Positions 4,808 to 15,038 of a DNA stretch of 40,723 nt are shown one piece after another. The notes under the pieces are model-generated. The model did no database searches. It had not been told where the DNA came from and saw only the letters and a program-made list of their open reading frames with translations. The stretch covers positions 1-40,723 of the forward strand of contig JACRHZ010000030.1 in assembly GCA_016220175.1 (NCBI GenBank). The letters run 5' to 3'. Each line of letters begins with the position of its first letter. The first letter of the stretch is position 1. A program made the translations under genes and the position numbers. Origin of the DNA: Candidatus Peregrinibacteria bacterium (GTDB lineage Bacteria > Patescibacteriota > Gracilibacteria > CAIRYL01).

Positions 4808-5998
4808 TTAATTTTCTTCGAGAAACGAAAGGATTTTCTGCAATTTTTTCCCGTGTACTCCGGCAAGAATTCGCTTGAGGTCGGGAAGTTTTTGAAGGGA
4901 ATTTTTGAGTGCCAAAAGATCTCGGGGATTTCCTCTTCCGCACGATATTTTTGCTATAAGTCGTTCCAAATCAGCAACATTTTTGAGAGATTTTTCCAAA
5001 TCCTCAAGAATTTCAGGATGTTTTGAAAGCTCTTCCACGGCATCGAGCCTTTCTTCAATGTGAGTTCGATCTTTGAGAGGACTTAGCATGGTTTGTCTCA
5101 ATTTTCTTCCACCCATTGCCGTCTCAGTTTCGTCCAAAAGCGATACAAGGCTTCCTTCCTTCTTGCCTTCTGCATCATAAAAAAGTTCCAAATGTTTTAT
5201 GGTTTCCGGATCAAGGGGAAGAAAATCTCCGGAATGGATGAGTCGAATATTTTTGAGATGAGGAACACTACTTTTTTGTGTCTCCTCCAAAAAAGTGAGG
5301 AGAAGTGAAGCTGCTCCTCTGCAGAGTTCTTTGTCCTCAAGCCCAAATCCTTTGAGATTTCGTGTTTGGAAGTGGCGTTCTAAATGCTCTTTCGGATTTT
5401 TTTGTGGGATTTGGCGAGATATAACCGGAAAATTCCGCATAAAATCTTCTTCAGAAAAAAGTTCTGGAGGAAGGATAATTTCTCGCGCTTCAAGTTTCAT
5501 AATTTCACGCCTCACTTCCTCAAAACCGCTTATTTCCCGCACGAAAAAATCTCCAGTGGAAAGATCCGCAATCGACAGTGCAAAATTAAAGTTCTCTTCA
5601 CAAACGGCTGCAATAAATTGATGCTCACGGGCTTCTAAAATCTGTTCAGAAAAAGTCGTTCCCGGAGTTATAACTCGCACCACTTTCCGTTCGAGAATTC
5701 CGGGGAGAGACTGGTCCGACACCTGTTCTGCAATCGCCACTTTTTCACCTGCTTTCAGAAGTTTTGCAATATAGTTTTCAGCAGAATGATGCGGAACTCC
5801 ACACATGGGAATAGGATTTTCTGAGTCCTTATGCCTTGCAGTGAGAGTTATTTCCAGAATTTGAGAAGCTTTTTTGGCATCATCTCCAAACATTTCATAA
5901 AAGTCTCCTAAACGGAAAAAAAGAAGAACATCAGGATACTCCTTTTTCATGTCGAGATATTGCCGTTGCATTGGGGTAATATTTTTTCCGATATCCAT
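4808..5998 (-). CDS. mutS: MutS N-terminal half, no ATPase domain
   Basis: The 396 residues match MutS domain I (mismatch binding; the Phe-X-Glu of GDFYEMF at F33/E35), domain II (about 110-240) and the first part of the lever/core domain III, up to 'LLALKNSLQKLPDLKRIL'. The clamp domain and the Walker ATPase domain V are absent: a TAA stop follows FLEEN, six bases before the next gene. Normal MutS is about 800-880 residues. I prefer ATG 5998 over the in-frame GTG at 6016, because the promoter at 6018-6046 would start transcription at about 6011. As it stands it may bind mismatched DNA but cannot hydrolyse ATP or signal repair; it may be a remnant, or half of a split gene. Confidence 0.85.
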   Translation of the reverse strand: MDIGKNITPMQRQYLDMKKEYPDVLLFFRLGDFYEMFGDDAKKASQILEITLTARHKDSENPIPMCGVPHHSAENYIAKLLKAGEKVAIAEQVSDQSLPGILERKVVRVITPGTTFSEQILEAREHQFIAAVCEENFNFALSIADLSTGDFFVREISGFEEVRREIMKLEAREIILPPELFSEEDFMRNFPVISRQIPQKNPKEHLERHFQTRNLKGFGLEDKELCRGAASLLLTFLEETQKSSVPHLKNIRLIHSGDFLPLDPETIKHLELFYDAEGKKEGSLVSLLDETETAMGGRKLRQTMLSPLKDRTHIEERLDAVEELSKHPEILEDLEKSLKNVADLERLIAKISCGRGNPRDLLALKNSLQKLPDLKRILAGVHGKKLQKILSFLEEN

Positions 5999-6017
5999 TT
6001 TCTGCGTGTCTAGCACT

Positions 6018-12205: not shown

Positions 12206-12233
12206 TTGAAAAAAAATATTTCAGGAGTACAAT
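12206..12233 (+). promoter_or_regulatory. Promoter of the RSH-EamA gene, leaderless
   Basis: TTGAAA (12206-12211), a 16-base spacer and TACAAT (12228-12233) end six bases before ATG 12240. The predicted transcription start is the start codon itself. Confidence 0.55.
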
Positions 12234-12239
12234 TCGACT

Positions 12240-15038
12240 ATGCATTTCGAGCAATTTCGTGAGGCAATTCAAAAAGACTCAAGGGGACTTCACTTTGACC
12301 GTATCAAAAAAGCATTTTTGTATGCGCAGAAAGCACACAAATCACAAAAAAGAGAGTCAGGTGCTCCATACATAATGCATCCCTTGAGTGTCGCTTTTCT
12401 TCTCTTTCAAAATAATGCGGATGAAGAAACCATTGTTGCTGCCCTTCTTCACGATACGATTGAAGATACTCCTTACACAGAAAAAGATATTCGTCGAGAA
12501 TTCGGGAGTGAGATATTGAGACTCGTGAAAGGCGTCACTAAATTTCCTAAATTTCATAAAAATAATGGCGAGCGTATTCATGGACCTATTGATATCCGGA
12601 CGGAAACCATCAACAAATGGCTCGTTGCTTTTAACAAAGATCTTCGTATTGCCCTTATTAAAATATTTGATCGTCTTCATAATATGCGGACAATTGAAGG
12701 ACTTTTCAGTGCAGAGAAACGCATTGTGAAATCTCAAGAAACGCTTGATGTTTTTGCACCGGTGGCACACATGCTTTCTCTCGGGGAAGTTCGCCTTGAA
12801 TTAGAGCAGATATCACTTTCACAAATTCTTCCTTCCGAGGAATTTCGGCAACTCAAAAAGAAAATTGAAAAGAGAGAAAGAAATATCTCGAAACTCATAT
12901 CACACCTCAAAAATAAATTTCATTGTCATAAAGATTTCCAGAAATTTATCATGAAGCCGTATCCAATTTCATACGCAAAAGTATACTTCAGGTCACACGA
13001 AGGCATGTCGGACGAAGAAATTTTAAAAAGCACAGTATCATGCGTAGTCATGTCACTCGAAGAATGTTATCAAGCGCTTTCATGTTTTCATGGTCATTGG
13101 AGGCAAAAAAAAGATTCATTTGCAGATTTTATTAATACCCCGAAAATAAATGGCTACAGGGCTCTCCACACGAAAATTATTCTCGAAGACGGACAGGAGG
13201 TTCAGCTCAGAATCATGACGGAGGAAATGATGCGATACTCTCAAAAAGGAGTAACTACCTTTTGTTTTTCAGAACGTGGAAAAAGACACGAAATCCCATG
13301 GATGAGTATGCTCCAGAAAGTACTCGCCGGAAATGCCGAAAAAAGTCAGGAGTTTTGGAAAGGAATTCAATCAGACCTACTCCAAAATTTTATTATTCTC
13401 CATGGTCCCCATGATCAAATTATTTCCCTTCCCAAGAGATCAACATATCTCGATGCCGCTTTTTCCTATTTGAAAGATAAGGCGGTTTTTGTAAGAGATA
13501 TTCTCGTGAATGGAGCAAAGGTTCCTCCCTCCACTTGTGTGGAAGATAAAGCACGGGTGGATTTTGTCCTCGACACAACGGAAAATGTAAAATATGAATG
13601 GCTGGAAGCAGTCGATACGTCTTTAAGCATGGAATACATCAAAAATGATCTTCGGAAAAGAAGTACTCTTGAAAAAAGAAATACAGGAAAAAGGCTTTTG
13701 CAGGAGAATTTTGATAGAAATAATCTCGGGAGTGTCCAGAATCTGAAAGATGAAAGAATTCTTAAAATTTTTCGTGATCTTGATATCCATGGAGTTTCTG
13801 ATCTTCTCGAACGTCTTGGAGAAGCGAGTATTTTCGCTGATGAAGTTGCAGATCGCATTCTTCGCGAACAGGGGGTCAAGATTAGCCACGATATTCCAAC
13901 GGTGCATCAACTTGCCTGCGTTGTTCATCATGATAAACTCGAGACATTTCTGCGTATTTTTGATGGAGTTCTTGAAAAAGTTCAACTGGAAAAAAAAGAT
14001 GGGAATTATTATTCGGTAAATCTCGCTATTACGGCTTCTCGTGAGCAAAAAAGACAACTGCTTCAGGTGGTAAAAAGAACTACTGATGTAAAAATTGATC
14101 GAAAAGATATTGTGGATGAATACAGTATTTTCCCGCTTTTTTTCCTTGGAATTATTAGTTGTATTTGGGCAGCGGGAAATGTGTTTTCCTATTTTCTTAT
14201 CCATACTGAGCATATCCATCCTTTCCTTTTTGCACTTGTACGCTTATGGACTATTTCTCTTCTCCTCGGAGGTATTGCTCTTACGAGGAGGAAGCTTGAA
14301 AATGCAGGAGATATTTCTACTCCATTCTCTGCATCCCCGTTTGGATTTCTCGCAGCAGCCATTTCTTTTACTGCTTTTACAGTATTTTCGTATTACACTC
14401 TTAGCTTTTTTACTCCTTCGGAGTATGTTCTTACTCTTTTTCCAAATTCCGTTATTGTGCTCTTCTCTTTATTTTTTGAACAAAGAATATTTCCATGGAG
14501 TCGAATCCTCCTCATTTCATTCCTCTCATTTGGGGGATATCTTCTTCTTTTTGGTGGAGGGGATTCGATCCCTATCGAGGGAAAATTAAGTGCGCTTTTT
14601 GGATGCCTCAGTTTTGGGGTATATACATATTTGAGCACCTATTTTCAAAGAAAACTTGGCATTCAATACCAGTATTTAAGGTTTCTTCTCATGATTTTCC
14701 TCTTTTCCTCACTCATTATTGCTGGAGTCTTCACGTTCATTGATTTCCCGTTTCCCACCGCGCGAGAACTCGAAATACTGGTACTTTATTCACTCTTCTT
14801 CCCCGGAATTGCGTATATTTTTTATTATTTTCTTATCTACAAGAATGGATACACGACGTACATGGTGTACAGTATTTTTGGATTTCTCATATTTTCATAT
14901 GTGTGGCAGGTAATATTTCTCAAAATACCACTCCAGACGCATGAGTTTTTTGCCAGTATCGTGTTTGGTCTTGCGGTGTATCTCGTAGCAAAAATTTATC
15001 CAAAACTCCACCATAAAGCCATAGATACTTCGTTTTAA
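12240..15038 (+). CDS. RSH-type (p)ppGpp hydrolase fused to an EamA-like membrane domain
   Basis: One open frame of 932 residues. The HD domain keeps the residues of RelA/SpoT hydrolases: H47 (PYIMHPL), H71-D72 and E75-D76 (LLHDTIEDT), D144 (IFDRLHNMRT). A synthetase-like domain follows (about 215-340; 'DFINTPKINGYRALHT'), but the positions expected for the Mg-binding Asp and the catalytic Glu read K/S (near 264) and Q (near 322), so pppGpp synthesis is unlikely. A TGS domain (about 383-445) and helical segments (to about 620) precede about ten membrane helices (about 630-922) in the two-times-five layout of EamA/DMT transporters. By family it should degrade (p)ppGpp; what the membrane part moves or senses is unknown. 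Convergence with the protease is not involved: both are plus strand. Confidence 0.85.
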   Translation: MHFEQFREAIQKDSRGLHFDRIKKAFLYAQKAHKSQKRESGAPYIMHPLSVAFLLFQNNADEETIVAALLHDTIEDTPYTEKDIRREFGSEILRLVKGVTKFPKFHKNNGERIHGPIDIRTETINKWLVAFNKDLRIALIKIFDRLHNMRTIEGLFSAEKRIVKSQETLDVFAPVAHMLSLGEVRLELEQISLSQILPSEEFRQLKKKIEKRERNISKLISHLKNKFHCHKDFQKFIMKPYPISYAKVYFRSHEGMSDEEILKSTVSCVVMSLEECYQALSCFHGHWRQKKDSFADFINTPKINGYRALHTKIILEDGQEVQLRIMTEEMMRYSQKGVTTFCFSERGKRHEIPWMSMLQKVLAGNAEKSQEFWKGIQSDLLQNFIILHGPHDQIISLPKRSTYLDAAFSYLKDKAVFVRDILVNGAKVPPSTCVEDKARVDFVLDTTENVKYEWLEAVDTSLSMEYIKNDLRKRSTLEKRNTGKRLLQENFDRNNLGSVQNLKDERILKIFRDLDIHGVSDLLERLGEASIFADEVADRILREQGVKISHDIPTVHQLACVVHHDKLETFLRIFDGVLEKVQLEKKDGNYYSVNLAITASREQKRQLLQVVKRTTDVKIDRKDIVDEYSIFPLFFLGIISCIWAAGNVFSYFLIHTEHIHPFLFALVRLWTISLLLGGIALTRRKLENAGDISTPFSASPFGFLAAAISFTAFTVFSYYTLSFFTPSEYVLTLFPNSVIVLFSLFFEQRIFPWSRILLISFLSFGGYLLLFGGGDSIPIEGKLSALFGCLSFGVYTYLSTYFQRKLGIQYQYLRFLLMIFLFSSLIIAGVFTFIDFPFPTARELEILVLYSLFFPGIAYIFYYFLIYKNGYTTYMVYSIFGFLIFSYVWQVIFLKIPLQTHEFFASIVFGLAVYLVAKIYPKLHHKAIDTSF

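Follow-up and report, generated by a model that had tools for sequence, protein, structure and literature searches.

A single reading frame in the 40,723-nucleotide window (the whole stretch of DNA analysed, from a Candidatus Peregrinibacteria contig, JACRHZ010000030.1) joins a predicted hydrolase-only RelA/SpoT-type protein (RSH) to an ACT-like domain and a ten-helix membrane domain that appears to be related to EamA transporters. The product is probably a membrane-anchored, SpoT-like long RSH whose hydrolase is tuned by the EamA-derived domain acting as a receptor. The fusion gene occupies positions 12240 to 15038 of the forward strand and runs uninterrupted for 932 codons from an ATG at 12240 to a stop at 15038 (932 aa), with AGGAG at positions 12223 to 12227 of the same strand, 12 nt ahead of the ATG, as a plausible ribosome-binding site judging by its sequence. 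The first-pass annotation had described one 932-codon frame linking an RSH to a membrane domain, and both the open frame and the relatives described below bear this out.

The window protein has the domain order of a long RSH (HD, RelA_SpoT, TGS, helical), with all domains encoded on the forward strand. The HD (p)ppGpp-hydrolase domain (positions 12312 to 12776) was identified by HD_4 (E = 1e-37; E = 5e-36 at residues 25 to 179 in the Pfam search of the window protein), by a table of its active-site residues, which are intact, and by Foldseek matches to SpoT and Rel structures. It is followed by a pseudo-synthetase domain (positions 12795 to 13274), with a Pfam RelA_SpoT match at positions 13041 to 13256 (residues 268 to 339, E = 1e-9). 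The NCBIfam model spoT_relA spans residues 25 to 564 with a score under its cut-off, and residues 18 to 544 align to Bacillus subtilis Rel (E = 8e-63). This alignment and the AlphaFold model place a TGS-like domain at positions 13386 to 13574, while the model and a weak RelA_AH_RIS match (residues 469 to 545) define a helical (AH/RIS) region at positions 13599 to 13874. The domains foreseen by the first-pass annotation were thus recovered by profile search in part: HD_4 and RelA_SpoT matched, EamA matched below its curated cut-off, and Pfam TGS did not match the window protein, although it matched four of 17 relatives. The AlphaFold model, confident in most places across the soluble part, arranges HD, synthetase-like, TGS and helical regions ahead of an ACT-type domain (residues 554 to 620) and ten helices (residues 631 to 923); the best Foldseek match to the whole model was full-length SpoT, which is hydrolase-only (7qpr, E = 4e-26).

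The survey of this architecture found both parts together, with a recurrent junction, as a form of approximately 920 aa in 43 of the 353 genomes surveyed from this class, spread over six families (the source genome is included, and one genome, G180, was counted by frame length only). A search of 380 genomes from the phylum returned full-length fused matches in this class only, at a strict cut-off that weaker fused forms elsewhere could escape, and two or more C-terminal hydrophobic helices were found in 0/80 soluble Rels drawn from many other phyla. Three architectures were distinguished: type A, to which the window protein belongs (RSH, ACT, ten helices, ~920 aa); type B (RSH, ACT-like, four helices and then ten helices, ~1,100 aa); and type C (RSH, ACT, four helices, ~780 aa). 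By profile comparison, type A resembles type B in its ten-helix part (98.6%, E = 1e-15) and type B resembles type C in its four-helix part (98.7%, E = 3e-16), so that the simplest series would lead from C through B to A. The ten-helix part of type B also matched the two stand-alone EamA-type proteins of the source genome of the window (77%, E = 2e-5). In the RSH tree, types A and B group together as a single clade (UFBoot 100, SH-aLRT 98) with type C outside it, and the two types occur together in several genomes, approximately 3 kb apart in G203. The RSHs with four C-terminal helices outside this clade include L046, L047, L048 and L108 to L118; most type C proteins retain both HD and synthetase residues and are predicted to be bifunctional, with L108 and L109 lacking the synthetase residues. 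One four-helix RSH (L098:7305-10616) continues for approximately 340 residues without predicted helices, to a total of 1,103 aa. Some genomes of the class translate TGA as an amino acid, which suggested the GTDB class Gracilibacteria and a Peregrinibacteria-like host, and a four-helix RSH from one of them (L040:4228-6570) has the HD changes E75 to D and D76 to N.

The window protein retains H47, H71-D72, E75-D76, D144, R145, N148 and T151 of the HD domain, whereas its synthetase domain has neither catalytic acidic residue: the Asp is gone (...EEILKSTVSCV...) and Q stands in for the Glu (...GQEVQLRIMTEEM...), in agreement with the residues listed in the first-pass annotation. The residue table extended both observations to the relatives. 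The catalytic and metal residues of HD are intact in 35/35 type A and 21/21 type B proteins, the exception at one position being the type A member L126, which has D at the H147 position, and HD is the best conserved part of the type A alignment (57% mean identity). The synthetase signature, on the other hand, is degraded in every fused member (complete in 0/56): the Asp is missing from the type A proteins, in most of which R, Q or K replaces the Glu, and some type B proteins keep the Asp or Glu yet have lost adjoining residues. Because the fusion and the synthetase loss both go back to a single clade, finding them together amounts to one event and not 56.

A mirror image of this pattern was found among other RSHs of the same genomes. 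The source genome encodes two proteins with an intact synthetase and a dead or missing HD domain (L002, 738 aa, on contig C11; L003, 386 aa, on contig C76), and six relatives that carry the fused protein (G011, G012, G023, G032, G041 and G049) show the same arrangement (L102 to L107 and L123 to L125). Together with the residue pattern across all 56 fused members, these partners give strong comparative support to the earlier proposal of hydrolase-only chemistry, and the window protein is accordingly best predicted to be a SpoT-like hydrolase-only RSH. It need not be the sole hydrolase of the cell. A divergent soluble RSH-like protein of approximately 1,007 aa on contig C56 of the same genome (L128:1323-4346) has intact HD residues and a degraded synthetase and is possibly a second (p)ppGpp hydrolase; the idea that the window protein is the only one was therefore rejected for this genome. 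On contig C76 (L003:1282-3602), the HD-less synthetase is followed, 26 bases on and on the same strand, by a protein of units that by eye appear to be PAS-like repeats. Elsewhere in the same order, a 662-aa soluble hydrolase-type RSH of G008 (L050) faces an HD-degenerate synthetase-type RSH approximately 1 to 2 kb away.

The first-pass annotation had placed the membrane tail where the usual regulatory domains would be, which held for the zinc finger but not for the TGS, helical and ACT domains, all of which remain. An ACT/RRM-like fold (beta-alpha-beta-beta-alpha-beta; positions 13899 to 14099) was modelled at pLDDT ~80 immediately ahead of TM1. ACT-domain structures were among the best Foldseek matches to this region (rmsd 2.0 to 2.7), with E-values that were not significant, and its sequence is weakly conserved (17% mean identity). 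In the model the membrane domain comes after ACT, and of the regulatory domains the zinc finger alone is missing. The zinc-finger motif (CCxP...HxxxC) was found in 0/76 membrane RSHs (0/35 type A, 0/21 type B and 0/19 type C), compared with 74/80 Rels of other phyla and 21/31 soluble RSHs of the class, and the synthetase partners L002 and L102 to L107 retain it. In known Rel/RelA proteins, ribosome binding involves RRM/ACT and the zinc finger. Loss of the zinc finger from the membrane RSHs and its retention in their partners suggest that the two activities may have parted, the hydrolase relocating to the membrane and the synthetase remaining ribosome-associated.

The membrane domain (positions 14130 to 15008) comprises ten helices in the model and by topology prediction, with positive charges predominantly inside (14 inside and 3 outside in the window protein), a positive-inside topology that is consistent in 35/35 type A members. 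Its kinship with EamA, claimed in the first-pass annotation, is discernible in the window protein and clearer in its relatives. The Pfam EamA match falls in the second half of the domain (positions 14583 to 14987, residues 782 to 916), with an E-value of 8e-4 for the whole protein and 1.9e-5 for the C-terminal part alone, and scores 20.2 to 25.4 bits, below the curated cut-off of 28.2. EamA was matched in 20 of the 35 members at E-values up to 0.1 (best 4e-9) and is the only Pfam family with many members matching; the next, TPT, belongs to the same transporter superfamily and was matched in two. These matches point to an EamA/DMT relative, weakly for the window protein and better for the family. 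The fold is less certain: the family profile reached YddG (5i20) in the PDB at an E-value of only 6.6, and the AlphaFold model, made without a family alignment, has pLDDT ~50 in the membrane part, too low to confirm the fold or two five-helix repeats and too poor for structural matching by Foldseek.

W643, R668, Y718 and Y729 are conserved in at least 33 of the 35 type A members; the window protein itself departs from its relatives at D646 (G), P647 (N), R811 (Q) and P858 (A). The membrane part appears to evolve mostly under purifying selection, with a dN/dS of approximately 0.10 to 0.12 in four of the five computable pairs and a relaxed value of 0.52 (dS 1.6) in the fifth, L059/L061. A search with the EamA domain taken from one type B relative returned only fused copies in 60 relatives, which fits a specialised domain and not a recently captured carrier. 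Two candidates for separated versions were rejected: an apparent stand-alone EamA gene in G004 was part of a fused gene cut by a contig break, and an apparent natural split in G057 was a 465-aa soluble hydrolase-type RSH with no EamA gene in its flanks.

Two known systems bear on how such a protein might work. In the hydrolase-only SpoT of Acinetobacter baumannii, the pseudo-synthetase is regulatory, and TGS, Core and RRM/ACT tune the HD site (PMC9974481); in Ks-Amt5, an ammonium sensor histidine kinase, a transporter domain became the sensor of a fused enzyme (PMC5764959). A. baumannii SpoT (7qpr) resembles the window protein in its active HD, pseudo-synthetase, TGS, helical and RRM/ACT domains and in forming the hydrolase arm opposite a separate synthetase. 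It differs in being soluble and in retaining a zinc finger; the window protein lacks this domain and continues after ACT into ten membrane helices. SpoT also belongs to another lineage, and the loss of synthetase was presumably convergent. Ks-Amt5 likewise puts a transporter fold to use as the sensor of a signalling enzyme, a role that would be analogous here, but combines an Amt fold with a histidine kinase in place of a DMT-type domain with an alarmone hydrolase. On these precedents we propose that a transporter-derived receptor tunes hydrolysis. The cytosolic HD domain would remove (p)ppGpp, and the synthetase domain, no longer catalytic, would serve as a regulatory scaffold. The ten-helix domain derived from EamA would respond as a receptor to a small metabolite or to membrane state, and might still act as a carrier. 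The direct joining of RRM/ACT to TM1 offers a short path from the membrane to the HD site, and a conformational change could pass along it through the attached ACT, so that the alarm would be switched off, or kept on, according to the membrane signal. Synthesis would fall to separate soluble RelA-like partners with dead HD domains. The fusion, its conservation, the residue and partner patterns and the predicted topology emerge from sequence comparison, whereas enzymatic activity, the sign of the regulation, a ligand and any transport are inferred. Coupling of hydrolysis to uptake or sensing is plausible. More tentatively, with the balance tilted somewhat against it, the protein could represent a new class of membrane receptor-enzyme, an EamA-fold transceptor that gates (p)ppGpp hydrolysis and is paired with soluble hydrolase-dead synthetases. 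If so, a symbiosis-prone CPR lineage would read starvation at the ribosome and relief from starvation at the membrane.

Other readings of the protein appear less probable. The membrane domain might be an anchor alone, placing (p)ppGpp breakdown at the membrane, for example near the translocon or sites of envelope synthesis, with no part in sensing or transport. Its far faster drift than that of HD (26% against 57% mean identity) is in keeping with this, as is the different, four-helix tail of the sister RSHs, which indicates that the kind of membrane segment is exchangeable. An anchor is nevertheless unlikely to be the whole explanation, as four helices or fewer would be enough and ten helices, the conserved W, R and Y residues and a dN/dS of approximately 0.1 exceed what it needs. 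We consider it somewhat more doubtful that the protein is chiefly a functional EamA transporter, exporting or importing, with the RSH part controlling transport and (p)ppGpp serving as its regulatory ligand. EamA/DMT proteins are mostly carriers, and the family signature positions, TM1 W and TM2 R, are kept; however, mere ligand binding would not call for the full metal and catalytic HD motif seen in 56/56 members, nor for HD to be the best conserved part. That HD acts on (p)ppApp, NADPH or another nucleotide, and not on (p)ppGpp, is improbable: small HD enzymes, namely a (p)ppApp hydrolase (7smg) and human Mesh1 with NADPH (5vxa), were among the Foldseek matches and a NUDIX gene adjoins some relatives, but the architecture is that of a long RSH, the SpoT and Rel structures were closest, and RelA-like synthetase partners are encoded in the same genomes. 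Finally, a frameshift, annotation error or assembly chimera joining two genes near position 14100 (between 14000 and 14150) can be dismissed, as nothing was found in its favour, the same junction recurs in 42 other genomes of this class, with colinear full-length matches free of stops in nearly all of them, and the helices and ACT align across the 35 type A proteins.

The receptor-tuned hydrolase that we favour combines elements that are individually familiar. Long RSHs are textbook soluble or ribosome-bound enzymes. PgpH, a 7TM-HD c-di-AMP phosphodiesterase, also unites membrane helices with an HD enzyme, one that degrades a nucleotide second messenger; it belongs to another HD family and has another membrane domain and another nucleotide. 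EamA/DMT transporters (PF00892; YddG, 5i20) share the ten helices, the Pfam match (20/35), the TM1 Trp and the TM2 Arg, but here the domain is fused to an RSH and shows little similarity to stand-alone EamA proteins from its genome. The type C RSHs of the class are similar in being long RSHs with ACT followed by membrane helices and no zinc finger, and differ in having four helices, a mostly intact synthetase signature and a position outside the A and B clade. Transmembrane RSHs are not mentioned in the 2011 RSH survey (PMC3153485), and amino acid binding to ACT/RRM is not to be equated with regulation of hydrolysis (PMC7058999). The first-pass annotation knew of no described RSH with a transporter-like C terminus; likewise, no RSH with an EamA or comparable membrane tail was found in the open-licence papers searched, where absence is not proof. 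Hydrolase-only RSHs and transporter-derived sensors are thus known, and their combination was not found described. In one conserved clade, alarmone hydrolysis appears to have been relocated to the membrane, beside a transporter-derived domain, and the starvation alarm of these cells may be switched off by something sensed there. This provides a handle on the regulation of the hydrolase, a long-open question for SpoT, and on growth timing in CPR bacteria that live on imported precursors, with the four-helix, fourteen-helix and ten-helix RSHs as natural variants for testing.

Beside the window gene no conserved partner gene was seen; it is flanked by an HU gene on the opposite strand on one side and a Ctp-type protease gene on the other. 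Within family f5, a NUDIX gene lies directly upstream on the same strand in 21/29 type A loci, an arrangement not seen outside f5. The NUDIX hydrolase gene at L033:7463-8083 is one example, with 20 further f5 type A loci alike, and in some f5 loci a calcineurin-like phosphoesterase is encoded past the NUDIX gene. Elsewhere in the window, positions 4808 to 6016 of the reverse strand appear by eye to encode a MutS-like N-terminal part of 402 aa without the ATPase, truncated or interrupted.
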